NCBI RefSeq assembly: GCF_000760215.1
Contig: NZ_JNAW01000002.1
Span: forward strand, 186,001 to 250,000
Reading direction: 5' to 3'
DNA length: 64,000 nt
Source of the DNA: Prochlorococcus sp. MIT 0603
Lineage (GTDB): Bacteria > Cyanobacteriota > Cyanobacteriia > PCC-6307 > Cyanobiaceae
Both the position numbers and the translations under genes were made by a program. Below the pieces are notes generated by a model. That model worked only from the letters and a program-made list of their open reading frames with translations. It was not told where the DNA came from and did no database searches. This document shows positions 17,749-42,000 of this stretch, in pieces; the stretch's first letter is position 1; every line of letters starts with the position of its first letter.

Positions 17749-17817
17749 TTTCTTTTTGGTAGTGGAGGTTGCCTCCTTACACTTAACTCTTGTTCTGATT
17801 ATTTAGGTTGATTCCAC
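17636..17817. repeat. 182-base direct repeat, copy 1
   Basis: This segment is identical to 17901-18082. It covers the secretion leader, the 5' region and the regulon promoter motif of the small secreted proteins. Confidence 0.9.
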
Positions 17818-18013: not shown

Positions 18014-18082
18014 TTTCTTTTTGGTAGTGGAGGTTGCCTCCTTACACTTAACTCTTGTTCTGATTATTTAGGTTGATTCCAC
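17901..18082. repeat. 182-base direct repeat, copy 2
   Basis: Second copy of the leader-promoter repeat, 265 bases from the first. Confidence 0.9.
18055..18079 (-). promoter_or_regulatory. Element B promoter motif (12-base spacer)
   Basis: Duplicate of the motif at 17790, placed the same way before the 18013 start. Confidence 0.6.
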
Positions 18083-20989: not shown

Positions 20990-21015
20990 TAGTTCTGAGT
21001 AATTTGTCGTGATTC
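20990..21015 (-). promoter_or_regulatory. Element B promoter motif
   Basis: TGGAATCA, 13 bases, AGAACTA on the minus strand; the distal end is 53 bases upstream of the 20962 start. Confidence 0.65.
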
Positions 21016-21069
21016 CAGTTTTTGTAATCCTTGGTTCATACTTAAAGTTATGAAGTTGGACAGATTAGA

Positions 21070-22885: not shown

Positions 22886-22911
22886 TAGTTCTGGAAATAA
22901 TTAGTTGATTC
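22886..22911 (-). promoter_or_regulatory. Element B promoter motif
   Basis: TGGAATCA, 13 bases, AGAACTA on the minus strand; 59 bases upstream of the 22852 start. Confidence 0.65.
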
Positions 22912-22955
22912 CAAAAGGCCTGAATAAAAAATATCTCCAACAATTACTAAAAAAG

Positions 22956-23837: not shown

Positions 23838-23863
23838 TTGTTCCACTCCTGAAAGAATGATTC
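23838..23863 (-). promoter_or_regulatory. Element B promoter motif
   Basis: TGGAATCA, 13 bases, GGAACAA on the minus strand; 52 bases upstream of the 23811 start. Confidence 0.6.
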
Positions 23864-23920
23864 CAAAAACATCTGGTTAAAATAGGAATCCCCTTTTTAT
23901 TCGATTAATTGACTCAAATA

Positions 23921-23946
23921 GAATCACTCTATAAATGCGAGAACTA
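23921..23946 (+). promoter_or_regulatory. Element B promoter motif
   Basis: AGAATCA, 13 bases, AGAACTA; 53 bases from the first box to the ATG at 23974. It is divergent with the motif at 23838. Confidence 0.65.
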
Positions 23947-23973
23947 CCAATACATACTGAATAAATTTCACTC

Positions 23974-24333: not shown

Positions 24334-24502
24334 TGAAAAGCCAGGGTTCTCATTAGAATGCCGATTACACGACCTGATTTTGTGATAACTCAAAAATATT
24401 GGTATTACACTAAAAACTCATTAGGTGTGTAATACATTTTGCGATAGTGTGATTAGATTGTGATAACCAATTACTAAAAAGTCGCGTCCCGTTTCCTTTT
24501 TG

Positions 24503-24528
24503 GAATCACCATTCAAAATCTAGAACTA
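24503..24528 (+). promoter_or_regulatory. Element B promoter motif
   Basis: TGGAATCA, 13 bases, AGAACTA; 53 bases from the first box to the ATG at 24556. Confidence 0.65.
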
Positions 24529-24555
24529 GGAGAGATTGTAATTGCTTTCAAGGTA

Positions 24556-24816: not shown

Positions 24817-25011
24817 TTTTCTTTTGATAAAAGAAATCTGATAGCTCTGTGCCCCGATTGTGATAATTGTGTGATATATATCCTTTCTTTTTAGTCCTTA
24901 AAATAACTTGCTCTTCTGACCTCTAAAAAAAGGTTTGTATTACACATCCAAAAGGTGCCGATTAAATTTCTTATACCAATATCTGTTAATAGCCAATTAT
25001 TAGCAGATTTA

Positions 25012-25037
25012 GAATCACCATAGACAAGTCAGAACTA
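25012..25037 (+). promoter_or_regulatory. Element B promoter motif
   Basis: AGAATCA, 13 bases, AGAACTA; 50 bases from the first box to the ATG at 25062. Confidence 0.65.
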
Positions 25038-25061
25038 AAAGTACGTAGTGAAGTCTTTTCC

Positions 25062-25433
25062 ATGCGTACTAATCACCAAACAGGTTTTGCCAATCAAAAA
25101 AAAACTGGTTTCATGCCAACCATAAAAAGCGCATGGCATAGAAGACAACTTGATACAGGTTGGGGGGTAGCCATCAAACATATTTTTCCACCTTATGCAC
25201 TCTATTATGCAATCACACGTAGAACACGAACTCCTATTTTATATCTGTTAGGGCTATCATTTTTTCTAACTTTCTTTTCAGCTTTTTTACAAAGTCTCCT
25301 TGATTTAGACCTAAGTTTGTTTCGATTATTTGAAGTCCCTATAACAATTATCTATATTCCATTTATAGCAAAACACGCCATTAAGCAAGCACGTCATTAT
25401 GCTAAATACAAACTTAGGAGAATAGTTAATTAA
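25062..25433 (+). CDS. Membrane protein, paralogue of 23974-24333
   Basis: A 123-residue protein with three hydrophobic segments. The ATG at 25062 gives a 17-residue extension over the conserved start MPTIKSAWHRRQ (25113). It is directly followed by, and possibly coupled to, the CHAT-TPR gene. Confidence 0.62.
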   Translation: MRTNHQTGFANQKKTGFMPTIKSAWHRRQLDTGWGVAIKHIFPPYALYYAITRRTRTPILYLLGLSFFLTFFSAFLQSLLDLDLSLFRLFEVPITIIYIPFIAKHAIKQARHYAKYKLRRIVN

Positions 25434-25464
25434 AGAACAAACAGCACTAGCTTTAGCCTTACTA

Positions 25465-28400
25465 ATGCCTGTCGCAATTGATGGTGCATTGTTAGCAGAA
25501 GTTGTTCCTGAGGTTCTTATCGCAGAAGAAACTTCTAATAATGAAAAAAATGCTGACTTCTATTACAAAAGAGCGAACATAAAAAAACAATTAAAAGACT
25601 TTAAAGGGGCAATTGCTGATTACACAAAAGTTATTCAAATTAACCCAAGACATTTAGAAGCTTTTTTTGAACGTGGTTTTAGCAAAGATGAACTTGGTGA
25701 TCATTCAGGTGCTATAGAAGATTACACAAAGTCAATTGATATTGACCCCAAAAATGAAGATGTCTACTTCAATCGTGGAAATAGCAAAAGTCAGATAAAG
25801 GACTATCAAGGAGCTATTTCTGATTACACAAAGGCAATTAAAATTAATTCAAATAGTTTGGATCCTTATCCTTATTTTTATCGTGGTGGCGCAAAAAATG
25901 AACTTGGTGATCATTCAGGTGCTATTTCTGATTACACAAAGGCAATTGATATTGATCCCAATATACCGTATTTCTACAACAGAAGAGGCATAACTAAAGC
26001 TCTATCAGGAGATTATGCGGCGTCAAGCCTTGACTTTTCCATAGCTATTAAATTAGATCCTCATTACACTAATGCCTATTATAATAGGGGCTTAAGCAAA
26101 AGTTTATTAGGAGATTATCAGGCAGCAATAATTGATTACTCTAAAGCAATCGAGTTAGACCCTCAAAATATTTCTTACTATCAAGAAATTGCATTAGATA
26201 AAATCTCGCTGGGGGATTATAAAGGCGCAATCAATATTCTTAAGACAACGCTTGGTTTTACAAAGCCCAAAAAGGTACTTGATTCTATTGAGGAATTAAT
26301 TGAGTTATATCTAATTACTGGAGACTTCCAAGAGATACCTGGATTAATAACCAAGGCTAAAAACCTAATAGAAAAACTCGAAGAAGAAAAGACATTAGAA
26401 GCAGCAAGATTTTTTTATTGGGAAGCAAAACTGTCTAGCACACTTGGAGATACAAAAAAAGCTATTGAGTTATTAGAAAAAGGATTGAGTCTCTTGATTT
26501 CTATCAACGAGAAAGACAATCTAATAGCAAATAATTCCAGGGAAGCATTAATCTATGCATATATCAATTTGAAAGATTTTAAAAAAGCCAAGAAGCTAAT
26601 TAAAGTTAGAACGGCTGATGGCCAGTTAGCATTAGTTTGGATAGCTTTCTTGGAAGGTGACATCAAAAAAGCAGAAAAGATGCTAAAAAGACTTGTCAAT
26701 CTTGAAAAAAAACAATTAAAAAACCAGAAATCTAATCCATATCTAATTGGACAATTAGGCTCAGCTTATTGGTGGCAAGGTGAAAATCATAAAGCACTCC
26801 CCTTACTTCAAGAGTCAGTAAACCTCTATGAAGATTCTTATGGGAAATCTAATCCAATATTAATTCAACCATTGATTAATTTAGCAATGACCTATTTTAA
26901 TCTTCAAGGCTTTCAAAAAACTGATTATTATCTACGCAGAAGTTTAAAGATTCAATTTAAGCAGATACAAGAAGAGTCTATATACCTACCAATTTCCAGA
27001 AGAGAAGCTTTCCTTAAAACCTTTGGAATAACTTATGCTGCAATATTTTCTGCTTCTAATATTCATCCAAAAGGAAAAGACCTCGCTCTTTTTGCTCGTT
27101 TAAATCGCCATGGGCTATTAGAAGAAATTGAAAAGAAACAAAGCGAATTAGCCTCTTTGCCTGGCCCTCAATTGGTTATTGCAGAGAATATCAAAGGAAT
27201 AACAAATCAACTTGCCTCTAGAAAAAATATAGCAAAAGCAAGAGTTGATAACTTAATACAAAAGAAGGAACGTCTTGAAACACAGCTCTATAATTTATTG
27301 CCTGAAATAAAAATAGGAATAGTTGATGTTTCTAAAATAGCTAATGCAATGCCTATGAACTCTATTTTAATTGAATATCAAAAATTCAGGCCATACAAAT
27401 TCGACAAACCTATTGATGCATTAGACGTAAAGAACTGGAGAGAAGCGCGTTATCAAGTATTAATCCTCAAGCCTAATGGAGATATCGAGACTGTTGATCT
27501 TGGGTTAGCAGAGCCCATTGAATCAAAAATCAAACAAGCACTAAGCCACTCAGAAGAAACACTAGATGATGCACAGCAACTTTGGGATGAGATCAGCCGA
27601 CTTGTTATTACCCCATTAGCTCAAGCAATCGGTGATTCTAAAACACTATTTATTTCTCCCGATGCAGAACTCAATCGGATTCCTTTTGCAGCACTACGTT
27701 CTCCAACTAGCAACAAATTCTTAGGAGAAGCTATTGACTTACGTCTTTTAACAACTGGTCGTGAACTTTTAGAACTAGCCGAGAGATCAACAACGTCTAC
27801 TAAACGATCACTCGTCGTAGCTAATCCAAACTTTGGTGGCAAACAATTCTGGGCTCGTCCAAAGCAATCTGATCTTGTTGCATCAACTCAACAACGCTCT
27901 GGTGATCTTGGTTCATCACAATGGAAGCCATTAGAAGGTACGAAACAAGAAGGTAAAGCTATCTCTGAACTCACTGGTGCAAAATTGTTAATGGGGAAAA
28001 AAGCAACAGCATTAGCTGTGCAAGAACGAGAGTCACCTAAGGTATTGCATATTGCTAGTCATTCTTTCTTTTTAGAAAATCAAAAGAAAGAACCATCTAA
28101 GGCTGATCCATTTTCAAGAAACTTAGTCACAAGCTCTCCTATACCAAAAGCATTCCGAGAAGAAAATCCACTTCTTAGAAGTGGGATTGTTTTAGCTGGT
28201 GCTAATGAACCAGAAGCCAACCCCAACGATGATGGTTATTTAACTGCTTTAGAAATCACCAAACTTGACTGGAACGGAACAGAATTAGCAGTGATCTCTG
28301 GTTGTGAATCAGGTAAAGGTGACATCCAATCTGGGGAAGGTGTTTATGGTCTTAAACGTGCCATTGCTGTTGCAGGTGCAAGATCAAGTTTGTTGTCCTT

Positions 28401-28596
28401 ATGGAAAGTGGATGATGCAGCAACAGCAGCCTTTATGAAAAAGTTCTATCAAAAATTAAAAGCAGGAGAAGGTAGAGCTGATGCTTTAGCCGCAACCCAA
28501 CAAGAATTTAGAAATCATCCCAACAAAGACTGGCAACATCCTTATGTTTGGGCAGCATTCCAGCTCAGTGGTGACTGGAGACCGATTAAGTGGTGA
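25465..28596 (+). CDS. TPR protein with C-terminal CHAT protease domain
   Basis: A 1043-residue protein. Residues 30-290 are about seven TPR units (YQGAISDYTKAIKI type), followed by further helical repeats to about 600. The last 300 residues are a CHAT domain, a caspase-like cysteine protease fold, with the dyad H866 (IASHSFF) and C947 (ISGCESG), then GVYGLKRAIAVAGA and a typical end WAAFQLSGDW. The ATG at 25465 cuts into a hydrophobic stretch; starting instead at ATT 25429, which overlaps the previous stop, would give a clean signal peptide. CHAT-TPR proteins are frequent in cyanobacteria and some act in defence or cell death. Confidence 0.88.
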   Translation: MPVAIDGALLAEVVPEVLIAEETSNNEKNADFYYKRANIKKQLKDFKGAIADYTKVIQINPRHLEAFFERGFSKDELGDHSGAIEDYTKSIDIDPKNEDVYFNRGNSKSQIKDYQGAISDYTKAIKINSNSLDPYPYFYRGGAKNELGDHSGAISDYTKAIDIDPNIPYFYNRRGITKALSGDYAASSLDFSIAIKLDPHYTNAYYNRGLSKSLLGDYQAAIIDYSKAIELDPQNISYYQEIALDKISLGDYKGAINILKTTLGFTKPKKVLDSIEELIELYLITGDFQEIPGLITKAKNLIEKLEEEKTLEAARFFYWEAKLSSTLGDTKKAIELLEKGLSLLISINEKDNLIANNSREALIYAYINLKDFKKAKKLIKVRTADGQLALVWIAFLEGDIKKAEKMLKRLVNLEKKQLKNQKSNPYLIGQLGSAYWWQGENHKALPLLQESVNLYEDSYGKSNPILIQPLINLAMTYFNLQGFQKTDYYLRRSLKIQFKQIQEESIYLPISRREAFLKTFGITYAAIFSASNIHPKGKDLALFARLNRHGLLEEIEKKQSELASLPGPQLVIAENIKGITNQLASRKNIAKARVDNLIQKKERLETQLYNLLPEIKIGIVDVSKIANAMPMNSILIEYQKFRPYKFDKPIDALDVKNWREARYQVLILKPNGDIETVDLGLAEPIESKIKQALSHSEETLDDAQQLWDEISRLVITPLAQAIGDSKTLFISPDAELNRIPFAALRSPTSNKFLGEAIDLRLLTTGRELLELAERSTTSTKRSLVVANPNFGGKQFWARPKQSDLVASTQQRSGDLGSSQWKPLEGTKQEGKAISELTGAKLLMGKKATALAVQERESPKVLHIASHSFFLENQKKEPSKADPFSRNLVTSSPIPKAFREENPLLRSGIVLAGANEPEANPNDDGYLTALEITKLDWNGTELAVISGCESGKGDIQSGEGVYGLKRAIAVAGARSSLLSLWKVDDAATAAFMKKFYQKLKAGEGRADALAATQQEFRNHPNKDWQHPYVWAAFQLSGDWRPIKW

Positions 28597-28601
28597 TTTT
28601 G

Positions 28602-28627
28602 GAATCACTCTAAAACAGTCAGAGCAA
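28602..28627 (+). promoter_or_regulatory. Element B promoter motif
   Basis: TGGAATCA, 13 bases, AGAGCAA; it starts just after the CHAT gene stop, 68 bases before the ATG at 28670. Confidence 0.6.
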
Positions 28628-28669
28628 GGAGATGGTGTCAGGAGGAAATTCTCCACTACTTCTAAAAAC

Positions 28670-30859
28670 ATGACCACTTCTAATCTCAAAATTCACACTG
28701 CTGATGAGTATGTCGATAGAGGGGTTGCCAAGATGAATGATGACGTGGAAGGAGCGATGAATGATTTCAACAAAGCAATAGAAATTGATCCAAATAATGC
28801 ACTTGCATATTACTTCCGTGGATATGCGAAATATTATGAATTAGAGGTTTACTCAGGAGCAATATCTGATTACAGCAAGGCAATAGAAATCGATCCCAGT
28901 AATTCTAATTTCTATACCGCTCGCGGATTTTCTAAGCAAGCAATTAAAGATTCAATTGGAGCAACAAATGATTTCTTCAAAGCACTGGAAATTAATCCAA
29001 GGAATGCAGATGCTTATTATGGGCGAGGTATTGCGCAACAACTTTATAACAAGGAAGGTGCTATTGAAGATTACAGCAAGGCAATAGAAATCGATACAAA
29101 TCATGCAGATGCTTATTTGATGCGTGGAAGTGCAAAAGAAGTATTAAAAAAGGTTGAAGGTGCTATGGAGGATTACAGCAAGGCAATAGAAATCAATGAA
29201 AACAATACAAGAGCTTTTTACGCCAGAGGAGCTCTAAAGAGCAGCTTAAAGGATTATTCTGGTGCAATTTCTGACTACACAAAAGCAATTGAGATCAATC
29301 CAGAATTTACAAAAGCATATCTGAATCGTGGAATTGCAAAAGAAGTATTAAAGAATAAAGAAGGCTCTTGTGAAGACTGGAAGAAAGGAGCAGAATTAGG
29401 AGATCAAGCTTGTGCGCATAACTGGAAAGTATTTTGCAATATTAATAAGTCTGATTTTCCAAAGATCATTCTTGCTAAAGAAAAATTAGATGTTATCCAC
29501 AATTTAGTTTGTGATTTATGGGAACTATATGATTCCACAGATAGAGAATTACCTGAGATGAGATATAGCTATTCAGAGGATGGTCGAGTTAATTTCTCTT
29601 ATTATGCAAAAGGCGCATCAGAGTTTTATACAGTAGATAGCGAAGGTATCGTTACTACACAAGGTGGTATTGAAATAGATGACATAAATCATATCCCCGA
29701 TCTTTTTGCACTTACTAAAACAATAATCTGCGATTTAACAGAAACAAAACCTATAGACTTTGACCAATCCAAGAAACTAGAAGAATATAGGCTGTTAATT
29801 AAGAATAGAAATAATGATGGAAATATAGTTGAAGACTCTGATGAAACTAAAAAGGCATTTTCCAATCTAGTCAATAAAGTTAAAGAAAATTTTGATATAT
29901 ATGAAAGAGGGAAGGAAAAAGAAGGACATGGCGATCTAGAAGGTGCAATAGAGGATTATGAAAAAGCATTAGAATTAAATCCAGAAAGTCAATTTATTTT
30001 AAATAGTCTTGGCGTTGCAAAAATTCAGCTAGGAGATGCTAATGGAGCAATTGAATGCTTGACCAAAGCATTAGAGATTGATCCTAGAGACCCCCTCATA
30101 TTAATAAATCTTGCTCGAGCTAAAGACTTCATAGAAGATTATGAAGGAGCAATTCTTGATATTGATAAAGCATTAGAAATAAATGAAAACAGTGAATATG
30201 CGTATTGGTTACGAGGAAACATAAAGTTCAAGACTATAGATTTTCAAGGTGCAATTAAAGACTACACAACTGCAATAGATATTAAGCCTGAAGAGAGTAG
30301 AAATTATTTTGGTAGAGGCACTTCAAATTTTCATTTAGGCAACTATGAAAATGCAATATCTGACTACAACAAGACAATAGAAATCAACCCAAAATTATGT
30401 CAGGCGTATGTAAATAGGGGACGTTGTAAGTCCTTTCTAGAAGATCAGCAAGGAGCATTTACTGATTACCAAACTTCTATTGAGATCAACCCTAATCATG
30501 GTCATGCCTACACTCTTATAGGTGATTACTATGCAAATATTTCTTTAGAGGGGAGAGACCTTCATCGTGCTATTAAATATTGGAAAAAAGCTTTAGAATT
30601 AGGCTATAAGGATGCTGTGAAATGGATTGTAGACCGTGCTATAGACAAAGGTGAGTCAGAGGATTATGAGGGATCAATTAAGGATTTGAACCTTGCTCTA
30701 GAAATCAACCCAAATTATCCTGATGCTTATAGGAATATGGGTATTAGTAAATATCGTTCAGGTGATGTAAAAGGTGCTTGTGAATATTGGGATAAAGGAT
30801 CGAAATTAGGCGATCCAACATGCATTAAGTTTTACCTAACAGCACTCCACAATAATTAG
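28670..30859 (+). CDS. Large TPR-repeat protein
   Basis: A 729-residue, mostly TPR protein (units of the YSGAISDYTKAIEINPEFTK kind) in two blocks. Residues about 250-390 between them are non-TPR with SYSEDGRVNFSYYAKGA. I chose ATG 28670 because the promoter motif lies immediately upstream, while a start at 28544 would overlap the CHAT gene in another frame. It has no signal peptide. Each block ends with a Sel1-like GSCEDWKKGAELGD or GACEYWDKGSKLGD. Likely a scaffold for protein interaction. Confidence 0.8.
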   Translation: MTTSNLKIHTADEYVDRGVAKMNDDVEGAMNDFNKAIEIDPNNALAYYFRGYAKYYELEVYSGAISDYSKAIEIDPSNSNFYTARGFSKQAIKDSIGATNDFFKALEINPRNADAYYGRGIAQQLYNKEGAIEDYSKAIEIDTNHADAYLMRGSAKEVLKKVEGAMEDYSKAIEINENNTRAFYARGALKSSLKDYSGAISDYTKAIEINPEFTKAYLNRGIAKEVLKNKEGSCEDWKKGAELGDQACAHNWKVFCNINKSDFPKIILAKEKLDVIHNLVCDLWELYDSTDRELPEMRYSYSEDGRVNFSYYAKGASEFYTVDSEGIVTTQGGIEIDDINHIPDLFALTKTIICDLTETKPIDFDQSKKLEEYRLLIKNRNNDGNIVEDSDETKKAFSNLVNKVKENFDIYERGKEKEGHGDLEGAIEDYEKALELNPESQFILNSLGVAKIQLGDANGAIECLTKALEIDPRDPLILINLARAKDFIEDYEGAILDIDKALEINENSEYAYWLRGNIKFKTIDFQGAIKDYTTAIDIKPEESRNYFGRGTSNFHLGNYENAISDYNKTIEINPKLCQAYVNRGRCKSFLEDQQGAFTDYQTSIEINPNHGHAYTLIGDYYANISLEGRDLHRAIKYWKKALELGYKDAVKWIVDRAIDKGESEDYEGSIKDLNLALEINPNYPDAYRNMGISKYRSGDVKGACEYWDKGSKLGDPTCIKFYLTALHNN

Positions 30860-30867
30860 GGAGTAAA

Positions 30868-30893
30868 GAATCAATGAACAATTGTCTATATTC
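30868..30893 (+). promoter_or_regulatory. Weak element B promoter motif
   Basis: AGAATCA, 13 bases, TATATTC; 56 bases before ATG 30924. The second box is poor, but spacing and position fit. Confidence 0.35.
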
Positions 30894-30923
30894 TATGAGC
30901 AAAAAAATAAAGGAGCATTGCGA

Positions 30924-31094
30924 ATGACTGAACCTAAAATTGCTTCTGAATATCTAGATCGTGGATGCGATAAAGACGATCAAAAGGACTCCAAAGGTGC
31001 AATAGAGGACTACAACAAAGCGATAGAACTTAATCCCAACTATGCAGAGGCATATGCGAATCGTGTATGTGCAAAGGAAGAATTGGTGCAATAG
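30924..31094 (+). pseudogene. Truncated TPR protein
   Basis: The frame opens MTEPKIASEYLDRG and contains a single TPR unit (KGAIEDYNKAIELNPNYAEAYANR), then leaves the TPR pattern and stops. It looks like the start of a gene such as 28670 cut short by recombination with the secreted-leader gene that overlaps its end. Confidence 0.6.
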
Positions 31095-31255
31095 TCACTC
31101 TTGCTGTTGTTTCTACTGTCGCCGGTTTAAGTTTTCTTACTCCTTCTGCTGAAGCAAGTTCAAATTGTTTTTCAACCAAAACACTATGGATATGTGCAGG
31201 ACTCACTGGATTATTCGCTAGAGACAAAAGAATCACGATACTTTTCAATAAATAG
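31067..31255 (+). pseudogene. Displaced secreted-leader gene fused behind TPR fragment
   Basis: The frame reads KGRIGAIVTLAVVSTVAGLS, then TPSAEASSNCF. This matches residues 9-41 of the leader proteins at 17557 and 17783 (HKRIGAVLGLALVSSVVGLS). The first eight leader residues and the normal upstream region are missing and replaced by TPR coding DNA, so the junction is near 31075. A new ATG at 31067 might still allow secretion. Confidence 0.6.
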
Positions 31256-31361
31256 AACCCTATAGAAACGTGTTCTTTTTTTATGCGGAGCAACTGGTCA
31301 AAAGAAAGGAAACAGCCTATCTAAAGTTATCCTTTATCAATGCGTTTATTTATAAAAACTT

Positions 31362-32204
31362 TTATGAAGAAATTGGAACAAAAACCAGTGAATTATTCTT
31401 CCTAGAATATTTCCATTTACCTTCTGTACTCTTAGTTGAACCTTCTGAAGCCATCAGCTTGACTACAACATCTTTAATAGAAAGCATTCTCTCCTCATAC
31501 CCCGGATGACTACTATTTGGTTTTGTGATGTCCCCAAGACCCGCTAATTTATACATGAAATCAATTTCTTTTAAACAAGTATCTGCTGGGAATCCAGAAT
31601 TAAAAATCATTTCGGTGGCCTTTGCATCCGCCTCTTTTTCACTTTCTCGATTTAACTTCATTTTAAACAGCTCTTTATCCTTAGCCTCTATATTTTGACT
31701 AGCTTTTTCCAATTTAAGTGAATCGCTAAATATATGATCTGATAGAAAATGAGCAATCTCATGAGCAACTGTACAACCTAGGAAGTCATGTCGTTTTCCA
31801 TAAGCAGGGAAAGAAGACTTGCTAATTGTTATTGTTCCATTTGCAAAACTATAAGCTTCGATGCCGCCAAGCAAATAAGACTGTCTTATTGCTTCTTGAA
31901 TATCATCAGAAGAAGATCCTTTATGTTTTTTAAAGGGATTTAACATCTCATAAAAACCACAGTTTTCTTCTTTGCAAAGACCCAAGTCTTCTGCTATCCA
32001 CTTTGTATAACCCCCTGAAACGATTGTAAAAGTCATTGGCCTCTCTCCCAAATCATTATGTTGAGCCAACTTGTCAACAGTCTTTTTGAGAACTTTATAT
32101 TCCTTAGGCATTAGCAATTGATTATCTCTTAATTTGTTGCTATTCACTAAAACAGAGAGCAGCGAAACAGAAACAGTCAGTATTAGAAATAAGGATTTTT
32201 TCAT
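31362..32204 (-). CDS. M48-like zinc metalloprotease, exported
   Basis: A 280-residue protein. An N-terminal hydrophobic segment (LFLILTVSVSLLSVLV) exports or anchors it. The gluzincin motif HEIAH is at residues 148-152 and the third ligand is likely in EKEADAKATEMI about 40 residues later, as in M48 peptidases. SHPGYEERM matches the distal M48 segment (HP.....R). It is 29 bases downstream of the helicase gene and probably in its transcript. Confidence 0.82.
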   Translation of the reverse strand: MKKSLFLILTVSVSLLSVLVNSNKLRDNQLLMPKEYKVLKKTVDKLAQHNDLGERPMTFTIVSGGYTKWIAEDLGLCKEENCGFYEMLNPFKKHKGSSSDDIQEAIRQSYLLGGIEAYSFANGTITISKSSFPAYGKRHDFLGCTVAHEIAHFLSDHIFSDSLKLEKASQNIEAKDKELFKMKLNRESEKEADAKATEMIFNSGFPADTCLKEIDFMYKLAGLGDITKPNSSHPGYEERMLSIKDVVVKLMASEGSTKSTEGKWKYSRKNNSLVFVPISS

Positions 32205-32233
32205 TTTGATTCTGACAATATTGTTTGCATGAG

Positions 32234-33109
32234 CTACGAGGCAAGGTTTCTAAATCTGGTGAAGTCAGGTTCAAAAAGCAATTTGACAGTTCCTATAGGG
32301 CCATTTCTGTGTTTGCAAACTATCAGTTCTGTAATTCCACGATCAGGAGTTTCTGGGTTGTAATATTCATCGCGATACATCATCACAACCAAATCTGCGT
32401 TGTTTTCTATGGAGCTAGACTCTCGAAGATCGCTTAACATTGGTCTTTTATTAATACGAGACTCAAGCCTTCTATTTAATTGAGAAAGAACAATAACTGG
32501 TACCTTTAGTTCAGCAGCCATTGCTTTCAAATATCTAGTAATTCTTGAAAGCTCATCATCTCTAGAGTTATAAAGTGGTTCATCCATTAACTGGAGATAA
32601 TCAACAAGAACAAGACCCAGTTCTTTCCCTTGTTGCTGCTTTACCAATTCGCATTTTGCGTGCAAATTTTCAACAGTCATCTTCGGATCATCAGCAATAA
32701 AAATCGGCATCTGCCCAAGAGTATTGATCCCTTGCCCAAGAAGTGGCCATTCATCGTGCCTCAATCGACCAGTTCGCAACCGTCCAGATTCAATCCCTAC
32801 TTCCATCGACAGCAACCTGTAAATCAGCTGCTCTTTGCTCATTTCTAAACTAAAGATGCACACAGGAAGATCATGTACTTGAGCAATATTCTTGGCAAGA
32901 TTCATTCCCATCGATGTTTTGCCCATTGCTGGCCTGCCACCAAGAATCATTAAATCGCCAGGTTGGAGACCTTGAGTCATGGCATCAAAGTCATAAAAAT
33001 TCACTGGGATTCCCGTCACGATGGTTCCTAAAGAACGACTTTCTATCTCCTCAAAGGTTGTTGACAAGATTTGATTGATTGGGAAAATATTTGAAAAAAG
33101 AGTGTTCAT
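32234..33109 (-). CDS. DnaB-type helicase, C-terminal domain only
   Basis: A 291-residue RecA-fold helicase. Walker A is GRPAMGKT (residues 58-65), and VDYLQLM, SQLNRRLESR and SDLRESSSIENNADLV are the DnaB motifs. Chromosomal DnaB has about 460 residues; here the N-terminal domain, which contacts primase, is absent. I chose ATG 33109 since the longer frame overlaps the preceding 57-residue gene. It is a likely replication protein of element B. Confidence 0.9.
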   Translation of the reverse strand: MNTLFSNIFPINQILSTTFEEIESRSLGTIVTGIPVNFYDFDAMTQGLQPGDLMILGGRPAMGKTSMGMNLAKNIAQVHDLPVCIFSLEMSKEQLIYRLLSMEVGIESGRLRTGRLRHDEWPLLGQGINTLGQMPIFIADDPKMTVENLHAKCELVKQQQGKELGLVLVDYLQLMDEPLYNSRDDELSRITRYLKAMAAELKVPVIVLSQLNRRLESRINKRPMLSDLRESSSIENNADLVVMMYRDEYYNPETPDRGITELIVCKHRNGPIGTVKLLFEPDFTRFRNLAS

Positions 33110-33119
33110 TTCTATTGCA

Positions 33120-33293
33120 TCAAGATTTGTAAGTAAAGTTGAAATCAACCCCAGAATCAATACCAATTATTGGTAAATGGTCGTTATAGATATTCATTGC
33201 ATTGGCTTTAGGTGTAGCCATTAAAGAAAACCTAAAGCCAACTCCTACTAGAGCTATGCCTAAATAAGAAAGTACAATTGATCGAAAAGTCAT
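33120..33293 (-). CDS. Small protein before the helicase
   Basis: A 57-residue product (MTFRSIVLSYLGIALVGVGF, then polar) with one hydrophobic helix. It lies between the promoter motif at 33326 and the helicase start (10-base gap), so it is the first gene of the helicase transcript. Unknown function. Confidence 0.5.
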   Translation of the reverse strand: MTFRSIVLSYLGIALVGVGFRFSLMATPKANAMNIYNDHLPIIGIDSGVDFNFTYKS

Positions 33294-33325
33294 GATTCGT
33301 TCAAGAATGTTTGCTTAATCTCTTC

Positions 33326-33351
33326 TTGTTCTGACTCTTTCAAGGTGATTC
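33326..33351 (-). promoter_or_regulatory. Element B promoter motif (helicase transcript)
   Basis: TGGAATCA, 13 bases, AGAACAA on the minus strand; 58 bases upstream of the 33293 start. Confidence 0.65.
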
Positions 33352-33394
33352 CAATCCATTTATTCAGTACTCCTCTTATCTACTAAGACACAAA

Positions 33395-33418
33395 AAAGCC
33401 CGGCCAATGCCGGGCTTT
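33395..33418. terminator. Strong hairpin terminator
   Basis: AAAGCCCGGC pairs with GCCGGGCTTT around CAAT, a 10-base-pair GC-rich stem. It separates the helicase transcript from the regulator region. Confidence 0.75.
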
Positions 33419-33486
33419 CAATTGCTTAAGAGTCAATTTTTTTTAAGCTTTGACTAAACGTGCCGTTTGATCAGAACCGCAAAGTT

Positions 33487-33636
33487 TTAATTTTTCCTTA
33501 TGGACGGAGGTGTCGGTGGGTCCGTGTCCATATTATGGAAGACTGTCAAAATGCTTGAAAACTTATCTGTAGGAATTGCAGAAGTTAAAACTAACTGCAG
33601 AGAATGGTGTTCTTCATAATTAAATACTGAATCGAT
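33487..33636 (-). CDS. Possible small protein with non-standard start
   Basis: Downstream of the minus-strand promoter motif at 33649 a frame of 49 codons (DSVFNYEEHHSLQLVLTSAI and on) ends at 33487. No ATG, GTG or TTG opens it; AGAAGG stands before an ATC. The nearest ATG (33617) in another frame gives only eight residues. It may be decayed. Confidence 0.3.
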   Translation of the reverse strand: MDSVFNYEEHHSLQLVLTSAIPTDKFSSILTVFHNMDTDPPTPPSIRKN

Positions 33637-33648
33637 TACACCTTCTTT

Positions 33649-33674
33649 TTGTTCAAAGTTCTTAAAAGTGATTC
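33649..33674 (-). promoter_or_regulatory. Element B promoter motif
   Basis: TGGAATCA, 13 bases, TGAACAA on the minus strand, pointing away from the sigma-like gene at 33723. Confidence 0.55.
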
Positions 33675-33722
33675 CAAAACACCTTTTTCCAGCTAAAAAA
33701 GAAGTGATAAGAATAATTTCCT

Positions 33723-35033
33723 TTGATCAGTCCATACAACAATTTATGTGTTCTTGATCCTTCTAGGGAGGGCTATAAGTTCAAAGGAATTGCTAGTGTG
33801 ACTGAGTTTCTACAAGATAATCAGCTTTCAATAGAAGCCCAATCTGCTGAGGTTGATAATTCTCTCTTAAAGATCAGTCAAACTCAGCCAGATGGTAAAG
33901 AAGCTTTGCTCTCACTGAGGTGCAGAGTCAGTCATTCGATAGTTGAAAAAATCAATTTGATCTATGAACAAAAAAACAAATTTCACGAAATCGAGAAAGA
34001 AGATATGTGTGTTTATGTTCTTGATGATGCCGGAGAGACTTTCCTTAGGCTTCCACGTAAAACTGAGCAAGGATCTGTTGAACTTGAAAAACAACCTTTC
34101 ACATGGGCGACTCTCTCCACTCTTTCAATAAATCCTCTTAGACCTTTTGGTGCCGATATTCTTTATAACTTTAACCCTGATCTCTCCAACCTCTCTACAT
34201 GGACAAAAAGGAAAGTTAATAGCAATTCAGAATTAAGATCTTACTTGAGACAAAAGGGTTGCCTGCTCATTAGTGACTGGGCACTACTGGCCGATAGTTC
34301 TCCCAGAAGAATTAAAGAAGCATGGGAATTGTATTGCTCAGGGGACTCATTTTTGGGAGTTAATGATGTACAAAAACTCCATCAGTCTTACCTAATTAAT
34401 TACAAACAAGCAAAAGCACATCATCGAAAAGTCAAAGGAAGACAAGACAGATGGGAACCTGATAAAGACTTCCTATCTTCTCTAGAGCCCACTCAAAATA
34501 ATGATGAGCAACTAACTGCAATGGCTACTGCTATTCGTCGATATATGGGGGGAGCAGACATAAGGAGAAACAGGGCTGAATTAAATGAAGAAATTTTGGA
34601 TGATTCTCAATCTGCCGATGTCTCATTACCAAGTAAGGATCTGATTCAACAGATTCAGCATTCGCTCCAACAATTTGGTCTTCCCATTATCAAAAGGGCA
34701 ATCGATGCCGATCGTTCAAAATGGCAGAAAGATGCAAGCAGACAATTGGCCTGGGAACTATATAGTCAAGGAATGGGGCAAAGAGAAATTGCAACGCGCT
34801 GCGATCACAAACAAGGATGGGTCAGTAAGCTATTGGAAGAAAAAACTCTCTCTGAATCAATTGCTCAAGAAGCCTCTTTATCACTTGTCAGGCGTTCTGG
34901 ATTTCAAGAAATCCGAAAAGATCCCCAAGGCCTTGATCGCATGATTGATCAATTAAGGAATCACTTGGTTTCTTCAGAACAAGAGGGTGATATATCACCC
35001 CTTAGGAAAATGGTTAAATCAGCTTTGAATTAA
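33723..35033 (+). CDS. Divergent sigma-70-like regulator
   Basis: A 436-residue protein, start TTG 33723. The middle (FNPDLSNLSTW, ELRSYLRQKG, ISDWALLADSS) resembles a group of cyanobacterial sigma-70-like proteins with a DWALL segment. The C-terminal part has a helix-turn-helix (LAWELYSQGMGQREIATRCD, then GWVSKLLEEK) like region 4 or a resolvase-type domain. It overlaps the next gene by one base (TAATG). I infer that it reads the element promoter class; a plain DNA-binding protein is the alternative. Confidence 0.5.
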   Translation: MISPYNNLCVLDPSREGYKFKGIASVTEFLQDNQLSIEAQSAEVDNSLLKISQTQPDGKEALLSLRCRVSHSIVEKINLIYEQKNKFHEIEKEDMCVYVLDDAGETFLRLPRKTEQGSVELEKQPFTWATLSTLSINPLRPFGADILYNFNPDLSNLSTWTKRKVNSNSELRSYLRQKGCLLISDWALLADSSPRRIKEAWELYCSGDSFLGVNDVQKLHQSYLINYKQAKAHHRKVKGRQDRWEPDKDFLSSLEPTQNNDEQLTAMATAIRRYMGGADIRRNRAELNEEILDDSQSADVSLPSKDLIQQIQHSLQQFGLPIIKRAIDADRSKWQKDASRQLAWELYSQGMGQREIATRCDHKQGWVSKLLEEKTLSESIAQEASLSLVRRSGFQEIRKDPQGLDRMIDQLRNHLVSSEQEGDISPLRKMVKSALN

Positions 35034-36250
35034 TGCCTGAAAACCTTCCTACTCCTGAACCCCTTGAAGCGTTTACGATCCCAGAAGGATCAATCTTGTT
35101 AGATACTAACGATCTTATTGATCCAAGAAGTTTTGCAATAGCTGGTCTTAAAAAGCTTCTAATAGAGCGAGAAATAGACTTAGCTCTTGGGCCAGAACTC
35201 GATCTAGATAATCCCAACAGACTTATCAGTTTAAATCGCTTCGCAGTGCAAATAGTTACTGCTGGAATTAATGCAGATGAAATAACAATTCCGATGAATC
35301 ATTGGTATCGCAATGGAGCTGCACCTCAACTTCTCTTGGCTTGTCACGTCGATGATGAAAATAATTTAGTCTGGTTTTCTGGGGTCTTAACAGGGCCTGA
35401 GTTTAAAAAAGCCATATCTAATCAAATTGGACGTAAGAACGAAATCACAATTTCGACAAATGAATTTCAAGGAGGTATTGATCGCCTCTTGAGATTTGTA
35501 CGAATCCTCGAAACAGACGCCATCCCAAGAATGGCTCTCAACGAACAAGCTCAAACCCAATCATTCTTACAACCAATTAAAAAGACACTTCAATCTGGAT
35601 TATCAGTTGCTGTTTTTGTAGCAGGTGCAGTCATCTTTGGACCAGCAATTTTCAGACCAAGATTGATCGGAAATATAGCGATGCTCTCTGGAGATCCAAT
35701 AGAAATGTCTGCCTATAAGACGCGAAGTTCTTATTCAGGTGATCCAATAGAAATATGTCTACTAACACCAAATGTCATAACCACTAGCGTAAAACCTGTC
35801 GCCAAAATTTCTATTGACCGACCCATTGTTTTCCCCTTAGAACCACTCAATGAAATCAAGGTTTATAGAAATGGAGAGTTGCTTTGGAGAAAAGGAAGAA
35901 CCTCAACAATCAACTTGATTGGTCCAATTCCATGGCCTAATGAGATCACACCAATTAAAGCGAATGAAAAACTTCTTTTAAGCATTACTAAAAAAGGTAG
36001 TTCCCTAGGAGAAGAAGCAACGATTACTTTACAAGCAAACTCTCAAGAGTCATTTCAAAAGCTTACTGATTTAGAGAACTCTCTTGGAAATAAGAAATCC
36101 AAGTGGATTAGCACTATTAATCAACAACTGAAAAATGATCGAAACCTTGCTTTGACATTACTATTTTCAGAGAAGGCTCCTAAATCCAAAGCCTTAAATC
36201 AAGCAAGATCAATTGTCTTAAGCAAAGAAGGTTGCACAAGGACTAAATAG
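35033..36250 (+). CDS. DUF1822-like protein with membrane segment
   Basis: A 405-residue protein. The N-terminal half has NRFAVQIV, then LLACHVDDENNLVWFSGVLT, which is like DUF1822 proteins. A hydrophobic segment at about residue 187-205 (SGLSVAVFVAGAVIFGPAIF) probably crosses the membrane, and the rest is a soluble beta-rich region. In other cyanobacteria DUF1822 genes neighbour sigma-like and CHAT-TPR genes, as here. It may act as a membrane-bound regulator of the sigma-like protein. Confidence 0.5.
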   Translation: MPENLPTPEPLEAFTIPEGSILLDTNDLIDPRSFAIAGLKKLLIEREIDLALGPELDLDNPNRLISLNRFAVQIVTAGINADEITIPMNHWYRNGAAPQLLLACHVDDENNLVWFSGVLTGPEFKKAISNQIGRKNEITISTNEFQGGIDRLLRFVRILETDAIPRMALNEQAQTQSFLQPIKKTLQSGLSVAVFVAGAVIFGPAIFRPRLIGNIAMLSGDPIEMSAYKTRSSYSGDPIEICLLTPNVITTSVKPVAKISIDRPIVFPLEPLNEIKVYRNGELLWRKGRTSTINLIGPIPWPNEITPIKANEKLLLSITKKGSSLGEEATITLQANSQESFQKLTDLENSLGNKKSKWISTINQQLKNDRNLALTLLFSEKAPKSKALNQARSIVLSKEGCTRTK

Positions 36251-36416: not shown

Positions 36417-36959
36417 ATGTCTCAACTAAAAATCAATATCTCTCCAAAGGCGGAGGCAATGATTGCGACTCTCCAGAAGGAGATCTTTAACCGTCGTCGT
36501 AAGAAGATCACAGCAGTAGGTGTGGTTGAATCTCTTGTCGAAAGTGGTGCGAAGTCACAATCTGACAAGCGTTACGCCTCTTCTTGGAAGAATCTAATTA
36601 AGGATATTGAGAAGGCAGCAAAGCAGACAGAAGTACACGGCAATAAGCCAGCAAATGTAACCGCTGAAGAGTGGGCAATGCTTGTAGCACATCGCACTCG
36701 CAAAGGATCTACTACTAAGAAAGCTGCTGCTAAGAAGCCAGCTGCTAAGAAAGCAACTGTTAAAAAAGCTGCTGCTGCTAAGAAGCCAGCTGCTAAGAAA
36801 GCAACTGTTAAAAAAGCTGCTGCTGCTAAGAAGCCAGCTGCTAAAAAAGCTGTTGCTAAGAAGCCAGTAGCTAAGAAAGCTGCACCAGCAACAACAGCAC
36901 CGAGAAAAGCTAGACGTGCTAAGAGAGCACCTGCTAAGCCAGCTGCAAAACTTGCATAA
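36417..36959 (+). CDS. Histone H1-like lysine/alanine-rich protein, copy 1
   Basis: A 180-residue protein. The first 95 residues are a conserved domain (KAEAMIATLQKEIFNRRRKK, SGAKSQSDKRYASSWKNLIK, EEWAMLVAHRTRKG). The rest is a Lys/Ala repeat of KKAAAKKPAAKK type ending RKARRAKRAPAKPA, like histone H1 tails. It probably binds DNA and compacts or protects it. Paralogues lie at 48006 and 60766; the tail of this copy has an internal tandem repeat. Confidence 0.8.
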   Translation: MSQLKINISPKAEAMIATLQKEIFNRRRKKITAVGVVESLVESGAKSQSDKRYASSWKNLIKDIEKAAKQTEVHGNKPANVTAEEWAMLVAHRTRKGSTTKKAAAKKPAAKKATVKKAAAAKKPAAKKATVKKAAAAKKPAAKKAVAKKPVAKKAAPATTAPRKARRAKRAPAKPAAKLA

Positions 36960-36985: not shown

Positions 36986-37011
36986 AGTCGCTCTTAATGG
37001 GCGGCTTTTTT
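36986..37011 (+). terminator. Terminator after H1-like gene
   Basis: AGTCGCTC pairs (with two wobbles) with GGGCGGCT, followed by six T. It lies between convergent H1-like and recombinase genes. Confidence 0.7.
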
Positions 37012-38236
37012 ATTTGCTATTTACTCTTTCAAACTCAGCTGTTGTTCCACTCTTAGATGCCCAAGGGTATTCTCTGCAATGAGTTTCATAACTATGTCCC
37101 ATAGCGGTTGCCATCGAACCACCGTTTATATCAAGTTCATGTCCACGAACGCTATAACTGTGGCGAAAGCTGTAGGAACCTGCTCTTTCATTTCTCTTTT
37201 CAACTTTCTTAATTAGTTTCTGCCAACCTTTACGTCGTCTGAGGTATTTGACACAAGCTTCTCCTACTCCGTTTTTGCTTTGAAGAGGAGGAAGCCAAAA
37301 ACCTTTAGTGGCAAACAATGCAACTAAATTCCAATCTTGCTTAACTCCTTTTTTATTTATTGGATACAGCGGATATAACCGTCGAGGTTGGGTCATTCCT
37401 CCGCCTGCTCTTTTTTGATAGGAACACCATAAATATTCTTCCTTTGTTTTTTTATCAACTCTCTTCTCTAAATGTTTTAGTTCTTCAGGTCTTAATCCAA
37501 AAGCTGCCAGCAATTTAATTGCTCTTGCCCAATTCAAAGCAGCAGGTTTATCTCGAAGTAATCCATCGAAGTTCTCAAGGGAATCAATAAGATCAATTAT
37601 TTCTTGGTCTGTAACAGGGTGAACCTTTTGGCTTCTGGATGTAGCTGTTTTTCTTCCAATGTGATAACTGAGATCAGTTGGAGGAGTCAAATATTCAGGG
37701 AACCTCTGGACATTCACACAATATTTAAGGAATGCAGCAAGATTTCTAGCTCTTTGTTGTCTTGTCCTACTTCCAATTTCCCAATCTTCAGTGGTCTTGT
37801 TGATTAGTTCAGCTGGATTCTTAGGAGAATTTCTTCCAGTCATTAATGCAATTGCATCTTTGATGACAGGTTCATGTTCTTTTTTCCAAGTTGATTCTTT
37901 TATTCCAGTTCCACGGGTGAGCTTCTCAACCTTGTATTCCTTTAATGCTTTATCCCAATCTCGATCTTCATCTGGTTTTGGAGCTTTATCATCAGCAATA
38001 TCCACTGCTAAGGAAAACTCAATACCTTCAAGCATGAGTTTGTAAATATTTCTTATTCGGATATAAGCGTCATCAGCTTCATGCTCATTCCATTTGAAGG
38101 GTAAAACTCTTGAGGAGGGATTTTGATTTGGTGGTCTGTATCTGACTAAAACATTTCCTTTTCTAGGTACCACGTTTAAGTGTGTTTTTAGACCTAGCTT
38201 CTTAATTCGACGTCTAAATTCTTCTTCCCAAACCAT
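37010..38236 (-). CDS. Tyrosine recombinase (integrase) of element B
   Basis: A site-specific recombinase of 408 residues from ATG 38236 (MVWEEEFRRRIKKLG). The catalytic set is visible: Arg in AFGLRPEEL, His-x-x-Arg in FRHSYSVRGHE, His in AMGHSYETH and the nucleophile Tyr in CREYPW. It lies next to the right attachment copy and its arm sites, so it most likely moves element B in and out of tRNA-Pro. A longer frame to 38317 is open but lacks integrase-like residues. Confidence 0.9.
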   Translation of the reverse strand: MVWEEEFRRRIKKLGLKTHLNVVPRKGNVLVRYRPPNQNPSSRVLPFKWNEHEADDAYIRIRNIYKLMLEGIEFSLAVDIADDKAPKPDEDRDWDKALKEYKVEKLTRGTGIKESTWKKEHEPVIKDAIALMTGRNSPKNPAELINKTTEDWEIGSRTRQQRARNLAAFLKYCVNVQRFPEYLTPPTDLSYHIGRKTATSRSQKVHPVTDQEIIDLIDSLENFDGLLRDKPAALNWARAIKLLAAFGLRPEELKHLEKRVDKKTKEEYLWCSYQKRAGGGMTQPRRLYPLYPINKKGVKQDWNLVALFATKGFWLPPLQSKNGVGEACVKYLRRRKGWQKLIKKVEKRNERAGSYSFRHSYSVRGHELDINGGSMATAMGHSYETHCREYPWASKSGTTAEFERVNSK

Positions 38237-38299
38237 CTTGCGGGTGCCAAAGATTAATAAAAATATTCTGGCACACTCTTGGCACCTGACAACTGACGA

Positions 38300-38320
38300 G
38301 TGCCAAAAAGGTGCCAAAAT
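38300..38320. repeat. Recombinase arm site, right end of element B
   Basis: Same 21 bases as 15633-15653 (GTGCCAAAAAG then GTGCCAAAAT). Inverted TTGGCACC and TGGCAC lie at 38270-38288, so this side has more sites, as expected next to the recombinase promoter. Confidence 0.65.
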
Positions 38321-39020: not shown

Positions 39021-42000
39021 TTATGCGGCTAATGGTCCTTCTGCTCTTTTTCTTACAAACTCAATAAGGCTGCAAATTTTGTTTAAGTCAGATTCTTTGA
39101 AAAGTTCATCAGGTGAAGAAGCGTAGTTCGTGAAAGGTTGCTCATAAAGTCTCCCTACTTCCATTACCCCATGATGAGTTAAGTAATTGATGATTTCATT
39201 AACGAATTGGATTTGATTGGAGGTATAAGTTCCTTCACTTAGAAACTCTGAAAAGAGTTCTTTTGCTGCACTGCGATCCAGTCCGACAAGATGACGAATA
39301 AAAATCCCTAACCCTTCCTCTTCTTCTTTTACCTTGTTGATCATTGCTTGAGTTCCGGCGCCTTGTTCAATTAGGAATTTTTCCAGCTCTTCTAAGTCGG
39401 TTGAGGTCAGAGCTTGATTTCTTTTTAAACGTTGAATGGTTAAGTTTTCTTGGTATTGATCCAATAGATTTCTTGCTTTGAGGCGAAATTGATCAAATTC
39501 ATCTGAAGCTAATAGTCGAGTGCTATCAATTAATTCACCCTGCCCAATTGTGTCTTCAAAATTGGTGTAAAGAGGCTTTCTTGCTTTCTTCTCAATCAAT
39601 CCAACAAGTCCCCGTAGCTTTCTTCTTACGTCCTCGATCATCAAGGCAGTGGCATCTTGCCACCACTCATTGTTTTGCAAGTCTTGAATGAGAGATAACT
39701 CTGCGGCAACCATTGGGATACTTTCTTTTTCAGAAAGCAAGCCAGCAATTTCTTGAACTTGTTGCTGAAGTGTTTGATAAATAGGTTCTTGCCTGAGTTG
39801 AGCTATTTGAAGCTTGTAGAGCAAAAGATCAAAACGTTTGGCATCGGGATCATCTGCTTCTAATCCAAAAGGAAGGTATGCAATCGTTCCAGACAAAACA
39901 CTGCGATCAGATTCGTTAATCCCACCCCATGTTTCGGCTTTGCTAAATCGTTCAACTTGTTCAAGGTGTGGTCTAATCAAAAAATTATCTGGATTACATG
40001 AAGCGACCTCTGCTTTTAAGGCACCAGCAATTTGAGCACGATGCTGACTGAAGCTTTTTGGAAGTTGAGTTAAGTCATCACTGATTAATCCAGATGATGG
40101 ATCTTTATGTCCCCCTTTATCGAGAGATTGAAGTAACTCAAGACGAATCTTGAATAACTTGGCTGAAATCGTTTCTTGTTTTGAACCAGTCTCGACGCCA
40201 CCTTGCCCAAGGAAGTATTCAAGGTTTTGGCAATAATCAAAAATCCAAAAGAAGCTCTTATCTGATCCAGGACCAAACAAGTCAGGGCAAAGTCTTGTCC
40301 CGCGTCCAACCATTTGCCAAAACTTTGTTTTTGATCTCACCAGCTTGAAGAAAACCAGATTTACGATCTCAGGGACATCAATACCGGTGTCGAGCATATC
40401 CACTGAGATTGCTATGTCTAATGATTTTCTTGGATCAGAAAAATCCTCAATCATGCTCTGCGCATAGGGCGCGTAATTATCGATAACGCGAGCACACCGA
40501 CCTTTTAAGTGGGGATAGTTTGCATTGAATCGATCTTCAATAAAGACCGCATGATCATGGTTCTTAGCAAAGATGATTGTTTTACCAAGGCGATCACTAT
40601 CCTCTGCTCTTTGACCATTTGTCCAAAGATGTTCTAGAACTTTGTCGACTGTGTCTTTATTAAATAACCATTTATTGAGTGCACCTGAGTCAACTTGATT
40701 TGGTGGTGCTTGTTCTTCTGACCATTCCATTTCATCCCATTCAGCTTTCTCTTCATCTGAAAGCTCGTCGTAACGAATCCCTTCTCGTACAAAATGCAAA
40801 GGAACAGATAGCGCTTTAAAGGGATTTAGAAACTTATCTTCTACTGCTTGTGTAAATCCATATTCATCAGTTGGCATACCTATATCAAGATCAAATAATC
40901 CATATGTATTTCTATCGATCTCATCTTTTGGAGTTGCAGTTAATCCAACAAGAAGACTGTCGAAGTAATCAAAGATCGCAGCATATTTTTGGTAAACACT
41001 TCTATGAGCCTCATCAATAACAACGAGATCAAAATGACCAACCCCAAAGCGTCTTTGACCTGATTGATCTTCACTATCAATCAAGTTGCTTATTGTTGGA
41101 TAAGTGCTTAAGAAGACTCGTCCTTCGCCACCTTTATTGGTGACGAGATTCACAGGAGCGCAATCTGGTAGATGCTCCTTAAAGGCTTTTTCTGCTTGGT
41201 TAACAAGGGCAGTTCGATCGGCTAAGAACAAGACTCTTTTGACCCAGTTGCATCGAATTAATAGATCACAGAGACTAATAACAGTTCTTGTTTTTCCTGT
41301 CCCTGTCGCCATGACAAGTAGTGCTTTTCGTTTCTTTAATTCAAAGGATTCAGTTATACATCTAATGGCTCTTTGCTGGTAATCCCTTCCAGTAATGCTT
41401 TTGCTGATCTTTGTATCTTTAAGTGGCTTTAGGCTTTCTCTTCTACGGATCAATAGCTCCAGTTCATCTTTTTTGTAGAAACCTTGAACATCACGACGCG
41501 GATAGTTGTGGTCATCCCATATCAAATGTCGATAGCCATTGGATAAGAAGATGATTGGTCGTTGACCAAATTGAGTCTCTAAGCAATTTGCATATAACTT
41601 TGCTTGCTGTTGTCCGATGATTGGATCTTTGCTTGTCCTTTTGGCTTCTATTAAAGCAAGTGGCTTTCCATCGTCACCCCAAAGAACATAATCAACAAAG
41701 CCAATACCTTCATTGTTTGGCATTCCACTAACTTCTACTTCGTCAGAGCGACCCTTGCCTAGTTGCCACCCTGCTTCTTCTAAGTAGTGATCGATATAGA
41801 GCTTGCGAGTTTCAAATTCAGTGATGTCTTCTTCTGGTTCTTGCGTCGCTTTATTTGCCTTCTTGATCTCTGCTAGTTCTTTACGTAAACGCTCTAATTC
41901 GTCTTGATGAGAAGTGTTTTTAGCTTGTGCTTCTCGCAGTTCTTTATCTCTTTGGCTTAATTGATCAGCAAGAGTGGCTATTTGTTGTTTGCTTTGTTCA

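Follow-up and report, generated by a model that had tools for sequence, protein, structure and literature searches.

The main new result of this analysis is a promoter-like motif, TGGAATCA-N13/14-GAACNAG, which lies about 20-70 nt ahead of the starts of island genes in Prochlorococcus sp. MIT 0603 and follows the distribution of a divergent sigma-70-like factor encoded nearby. Judging from where the motif lies and in which genomes it occurs, we consider it likely that this sigma factor reads it. The sigma factor, a putative membrane anti-sigma factor encoded by the overlapping gene, and a CHAT protease from the same neighbourhood may together form a signal-transduction switch with a local regulon, a reading we favour with fair confidence. 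Positions below refer to the window, i.e. the whole stretch of 64,000 nt that was analysed.

A divergent sigma-70-like factor

The gene and the parts of its product are as follows.

33723..35033, + strand: divergent sigma-70-like factor, 436 aa, TTG start; assigned by profile link and AlphaFold2 model
Residues ~13-178: sigma2-like part, containing an insertion
Residues ~180-325: variable linker
Residues ~325-373: HTH / sigma4-like part, with the HTH at ~338-372
Residues 374-436: C-terminal tail of ~60 residues, family-specific and conserved

The 436-residue open reading frame with a segment ELRSYLRQKG...SDWALL and a C-terminal helix-turn-helix, described in the original prediction, is real. 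Its TTG start occupies the same conserved position in close relatives, and the segment is among the best-conserved stretches of the protein family. Relatives were found in 26 of 300 same-family genomes, and none in viral contigs. A search of genome contigs placed the closest relatives of the window genome (1.75 Mb) among Prochlorococcus single-cell genomes.

None of the Pfam or NCBIfam sigma models exceeded its cut-off on the 436-aa protein; the best match, TIGR02937 (E 0.068), was far under it, and curated profiles did not detect Sigma-70 regions 2 and 4. As the curated sigma and DUF1822 models all stay under their cut-offs for the sigma candidate and its partner, the assignment needs family profiles. 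One of these, profile A1, picks the ORF directly upstream of DUF1822 (PF08852) genes in other cyanobacterial families. The hhalign comparison of the 436-aa family with these upstream proteins gave a probability of 100 and an E-value of 2.5e-39 over 360 columns. The family also matched the canonical, better-conserved DUF1822-adjacent sigma factors, with an E-value of ~1e-13 over residues 138-373. DUF1822-adjacent sigma proteins carry Sigma70_r4 over cut-off, and one also carries Sigma70_r2 (29.4 against a curated cut-off of 24.1 for Sigma70_r4, and 26.9 against 24 for Sigma70_r2). The profile search proposed originally thus left the window proteins under curated cut-offs, but with family profiles linked them to sigma factors and DUF1822.

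Structure prediction, on which the original claim had been made to depend, gave a sigma-like fold. The AlphaFold2 model (pLDDT 83) had no significant whole-chain match in Foldseek, and a PDB sequence search returned nothing meaningful for the 436-aa protein or its 405-aa partner. In VIA-align, ranks 1-36 were all sigma factors, with Z 5.0-7.9, among them sigmaE 1or7_B (Z 6.5, 3.0 A, 89 residues) and a Thermus sigma factor (Z 6.0, 3.3 A, 105 residues). The best row for an unrelated protein had Z 4.3, and all sigma rows stay below Z 8, which is middling by the tool's own note. The weight of the sigma call therefore lies on the homology chain and on the consistency of these rows. The predicted sigma fold, together with homology to proteins in which curated models recognise sigma regions, qualifies the protein as Sigma-70, and it very probably belongs to the sigma family, as judged from sequence and model. 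The relationship suggested from the sequence alone is in this way borne out by family profiles, the homology chain and the VIA-align rows. The linker between sigma2 and sigma4, ~145 residues (between ~178 and ~325) by alignments and model, is long for a group 3/4 sigma factor; in ECF (group 4) factors, regions 2 and 4 are by definition less than 50 residues apart (PMC11119718), and the 436-aa protein falls outside this spacing.

A promoter-like motif tracks the sigma gene

The motif was first suggested by the upstream regions of the sigma and CHAT genes. The window contains the following sites, listed with one further gene.

33651..33676, - strand: TGGAATCA-N14-GAAC, pointing away from the sigma gene; no ORF of at least 40 aa behind it
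33328..33353, - strand: motif, before a 57-aa ORF (ATG at 33294) and the DnaB_C gene
32234..33166, - strand: DnaB C-terminal helicase-like protein (DnaB_C gene; PF03796, E 1.1e-95)
28600..28625, + strand: motif with one departure (GAGC), before the TPR gene; PWM score 40.8
25010..25035, + strand: motif with one departure (TAGAATCA), before ORF 25062-25433; PWM score 26.9
24501..24526, + strand: motif, before an 86-aa secreted-like ORF (ATG at 24556) co-oriented with the TPR-CHAT gene
23840..23865, - strand: motif, before ORF 23452-23811 (119 aa, signal-peptide-like)
22888..22913, - strand: motif, before ORF 22223-22852 (209 aa)
20992..21017, - strand: motif, before ORF 20516-20962 (148 aa, signal-peptide-like)
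18057..18081, - strand: motif (N13), before a 76-aa ORF
17792..17816, - strand: motif (N13), before a 63-aa ORF whose leader is common with that of the 76-aa ORF

The window has 9 matches to the short form GTTC-N12-18-TGATTCC (complement strand), where 0.18 would be expected. Pattern searches, on which the genome-wide counts rest, found the longer form 11 times in the genome; 8 of these matches fall in the part of the window from 17792 to 33676. A weight-matrix scan added the sites at 25010 and 28600, and gave 0 hits of at least 12 bits in 236 kb of shuffled sequence. We collected 56 sites in 21 loci, and 51 of them have an ATG-initiated ORF of at least 40 aa 20-75 nt downstream (background 20%), the start codon mostly following 27-47 nt after the motif. 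An A two bases after GAAC, which the pattern does not impose, is invariant in all 46 N14 sites.

The strict motif was counted 46 times in the sigma-positive genomes, 19 of 26 having it, whereas the 274 sigma-negative ones have 17 occurrences, spread over 17 genomes (Fisher p 7e-15). This enrichment is partly circular for some loci because some of the sites seeded the motif. Within sigma-positive genomes 41 of the 46 occurrences lie at most 20 kb from the sigma gene, as counted by hand. In a looser search without the extension, the same genus had 9 and 4 matches in its two sigma-positive genomes and 5 across its twelve sigma-negative ones. The remaining 7 of the 26 sigma-positive genomes, some of them incomplete or with partial sigma genes, lack the strict motif, and it is absent from distant cyanobacteria outside the family that have related sigma genes. 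That the locus carries its own transcription programme, as had been proposed, agrees with a private promoter-like motif that tracks the sigma gene.

Candidate regulon members are mostly small secreted-looking proteins, accompanied by TPR, DnaB-like and AAA proteins. The DnaB_C gene of the window is a probable member, judging by the site ahead of it; in locus L029 the motif stands 33 nt ahead of the ATG of a DnaB_C homologue. In the relative L027, which is 88% identical, a 63-aa secreted-like ORF occupies the place that matches the 33651..33676 site. The start of the sigma gene has no sense-strand motif, and autoregulation is consequently not seen; the motif as the sigma gene's own promoter was rejected on this ground. 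A reading of GTTC-N-TGATTCCA upstream of the sigma gene was also rejected, the downstream ORFs being on the other strand, and a repeated TGGAATCAACCTGTTCCTTCTGGAAC in genus g5 was set aside as an unrelated repeat. The small ORFs in the 17748 and 18013 region (- strand) share an identical N-terminus (MTTSNKNAKGHKRIGAVLGLALVSS) and leader, with differing mature parts, and similar leader-plus-variable small proteins recur in L029.

Two other explanations were weighed. The 436-aa protein might be a DNA-binding activator or repressor with a sigma-like fold that reads the motif through its HTH and does not replace sigma on the core enzyme. This would be in line with the lack of a sigma profile over cut-off on the window protein, with its insertion-altered region 2 and extra C-terminal tail, and with a motif spacing that is also compatible with an operator beside a host promoter. 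We nevertheless regard it as improbable: in the model the sigma2-like domain aligns with sigmaE and Thermus sigma at 3.0-3.5 A, sigma regions 2 and 4 can still be recognised in relatives, and the two conserved blocks with a fixed spacer and an ATG mostly 27-47 nt on resemble a -35/-10 arrangement. Still less probable is that the motif is a cassette or integration leader which moves with small island genes and is unrelated to sigma. Sites do precede small island genes, and those at 17792 and 18057 share a duplicated leader, but the motif also stands ahead of DnaB-like, TPR and AAA genes, its distance to the ATG is narrow, and it tracks sigma across Prochlorococcus and Cyanobium-type genomes despite their differing gene content. 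Recognition of the motif by the sigma factor is the reading retained below.

The partner protein

The gene directly after the sigma gene, in all loci examined, encodes the partner.

35033..36250, + strand: partner, 405 aa, ATG start, overlapping the 436-aa ORF by TAATG; predicted membrane anti-sigma factor
Residues ~25-171: DUF1822-like N-domain (hhalign)
Residues ~189-207: TM helix (hydrophobic segment, Kyte-Doolittle 2.19)
Residues ~235-345, plus helical tail: Ig/FnIII-like C-domain (model)

The TAATG coupling proposed for this protein was confirmed by the ORF overlap, and the proposed membrane helix agrees with the hydrophobic segment listed. Its description as DUF1822-like holds for the N-terminal ~150 residues; the C-terminal half is another domain, which is a separate gene elsewhere. 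The DUF1822 alignment (hhalign probability 97, E 9.9e-11) covers residues 25-171 only, and the PF08852 model itself matched neither the window partner nor anything else in the genome. Profile-profile homology and the position beside the sigma gene together relate the partner to DUF1822. Its model (pLDDT 79), in which the C-domain forms an Ig/FnIII-like sandwich, found no significant whole-chain match in Foldseek.

The TM-like stretch at ~189-207 is present in 8 of 8 fused partners and in 0 of 5 unfused ones tested. Stand-alone homologues of the C-domain begin with signal-peptide-like N-termini, and two cysteines of this domain (242 and 401) are invariant among fused partners, both being present in most of the stand-alone homologues printed. 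We infer from the sequence a cytosolic N-domain and an exocytoplasmic C-domain. This predicted layout, in which a single TM helix joins the two domains and the gene overlaps that of a sigma factor, is the one expected of a membrane anti-sigma factor. None of the known anti-sigma domains was matched in the partner, and on its sequence features we hold the anti-sigma role to be somewhat better than an even bet.

Gene order and genomic setting

In Cyanobium-type genomes the sigma gene is followed, in this order, by genes for a DUF1822-like protein (~345 aa), for a protein of ~712 aa that matches CHASE2 weakly, and for a ~235-aa protein. A ~780-aa homologue of the ~712-aa protein in a more distant cyanobacterium has both CHAT and CHASE2 over cut-off. 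Residues ~190-404 of the window partner have their homologue in the ~235-aa protein, so that two genes which are separate elsewhere are combined in this partner; the CHAT-CHASE2 gene is absent between the two fused parts. The simplest reading of these comparisons is loss of CHAT-CHASE2 and fusion of the DUF1822-like and C-domain genes. By the same comparisons, the putative ancestral operon is sigma, DUF1822, CHAT-CHASE2 and an exported protein, and it persists in Cyanobium-type chromosomes. The original prediction had called the protein a mobile-element sigma-like factor, which is not supported in that wording: the module, with two extra genes, is a conserved chromosomal operon in Cyanobium-type genomes, and is therefore not intrinsic to mobile elements.

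In the window, a tRNA-Pro gene lies at 13184-13258, core synteny with two same-genus genomes is lost at ~11-14 kb, and the right part is a mosaic. A second sigma locus, L033, is also near a tRNA-Pro gene (anticodon TGG). The setting fits a tRNA-adjacent variable island, possibly a tycheposon-like one. A 435-aa protein (37010-38317, - strand) has a weak integrase match (phrog_216, E 0.0052), and its relatives occur near other sigma loci, in L029 (as a fragment) and L033. Three ORFs (36417-36959, 47973-48527 and 60766-61257) are copies of one lysine/alanine-rich protein, whose N-terminus is conserved and whose tail is histone-like; the first copy, located just downstream of the sigma pair, has a weak PF07382 match. 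Three adjacent ORFs at 39021-45183 (- strand) appear similar to type I restriction-modification genes (helicase/nuclease, specificity and methyltransferase).

A proposed protease-dependent switch

The CHAT-TPR genes that had been noted near the pair are confirmed.

25465..28596, + strand: TPR-CHAT protein, 1043 aa (PF12770, E 7.6e-73), with a caspase-like His-Cys dyad (HIASHS / SGCESG)
28544..30859, + strand: TPR-only protein; likely real start 28670, 44 nt past the motif

The TPR-CHAT gene is the sole CHAT gene of the genome and lies 8 kb from the sigma gene. In all 11 sigma-positive genomes tested a CHAT gene was found within ~10 kb of sigma, against any CHAT in 2 of 9 sigma-negative genomes tested, both same-genus ones of which lack CHAT. 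The His-Cys dyad is kept in every assessable CHAT protein. By analogy with Csx29 of type III-E CRISPR systems, CHAT may be the activating protease, which we offer as a tentative assignment. An M48-type peptidase (31362-32204, - strand; PF01435 over cut-off) has homologues next to the sigma locus of both L027 and L029, and is accordingly a second candidate protease for the switch.

The proposed switch builds on observed homology, gene order, fusion architecture, the sigma-like predicted fold and CHAT co-occurrence, as well as on where the motif lies and how it is distributed. The 436-aa factor would direct RNA polymerase to the TGGAATCA-N13/14-GAACNAG promoters of surrounding island genes, the targets being small secreted proteins, TPR proteins and the DnaB-like helicase. 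The partner would use its cytosolic DUF1822-like domain to keep sigma at the membrane, and its Ig-like domain would sense the outside. A signal of stress or of an invader, perhaps passed on by TPR-CHAT proteolysis, would then free sigma and turn the local regulon on. In this scheme we infer core binding by the sigma factor, its inhibition by the partner, cleavage of the partner by CHAT, and the inducing signal. The whole suggests a self-contained stress or defence switch.

Alternatively, the partner could be an effector or scaffold of a defence or cell-death system and no inhibitor, sigma being just one output. DUF1822 and sigma genes do occur with EACC2-caspase genes that have been proposed as conflict systems (PMC8195603), and the DUF1822-like domain model (residues 25-163) shows a low-confidence, weak likeness to the nuclease folds of I-Ssp6803I (2ost, Z 7.0) and the Hjc resolvase (1gef, Z 6.7). 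Values of Z below 8 are not diagnostic, though, and the fused cytosol-TM-exterior layout, encoded in an overlapping gene downstream of sigma, is that of an anti-sigma factor; we consider the effector or scaffold role rather unlikely. The anti-sigma role of the partner is retained in the comparisons that follow.

Comparison with known systems

RseA consists of a cytosolic domain, a single TM helix and an exocytoplasmic domain. As in RseA/DegS systems, the sigma gene of the window overlaps a gene for a protein of predicted cytosolic-TM-exocytoplasmic layout; the window partner differs in having a DUF1822-like N-domain, and the candidate protease is CHAT, not DegS.

The closest described neighbourhoods are those of an EACC2-caspase gene (CHASE2), an ECF sigma factor and DUF1822 (Kaur et al., 2021; PMC8195603), and the literature we found on DUF1822-linked sigma factors consists of neighbourhood analysis only. 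The window has homologous sigma and DUF1822-like genes in like order, and its Cyanobium-type relatives retain the CHAT-CHASE2 gene. By contrast, no CHAT gene stands beside sigma and DUF1822 in the window, which places the locus outside the EACC2-caspase system as defined: the pair lacks an adjacent CHAT-CHASE2, a separate TPR-CHAT gene lies nearby, DUF1822 is joined by a TM helix to a domain of exported type, and we propose a cognate promoter for the sigma factor. The predicted promoter gives DUF1822-linked sigma factors a concrete target sequence and a gene set for testing. In a survey, 14 Prochlorococcus species had A.1-family sigma factors only (PMC11119718). Prochlorococcus genomes are small and streamlined, and a private sigma factor missed by curated profiles would, if true, be an unrecorded regulatory layer.

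In type III-E CRISPR systems the TPR-CHAT protease Csx29 cleaves Csx30, an inhibitor of CASP-sigma (Strecker et al., 2022; PMC10028731). There as here, a TPR-CHAT protease, a sigma inhibitor (a candidate in our case) and a sigma factor are encoded in one locus, which also contains sites for the sigma factor (candidate sites in our case). Since the same three kinds of parts are present as in Csx29-Csx30-CASP-sigma, we propose an analogous mechanism. The systems differ in that type III-E CASP has Cas7-11 and a CRISPR array, none of which was noticed among the window ORFs as read, and in that the candidate inhibitor of the window is predicted to be membrane-bound; homology to Csx30 is not claimed. 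It is tempting to speculate that marine picocyanobacteria possess a CRISPR-free cascade of TPR-CHAT, membrane anti-sigma factor and divergent sigma factor, in which a DUF1822-type anti-sigma factor would be proteolysed and a private sigma factor thereby released for a local regulon of secreted and replication-type proteins, via the TGGAATCA-N14-GAAC promoter. If the CHAT link is true, CASP-like protease-sigma switches would be known to exist outside CRISPR.
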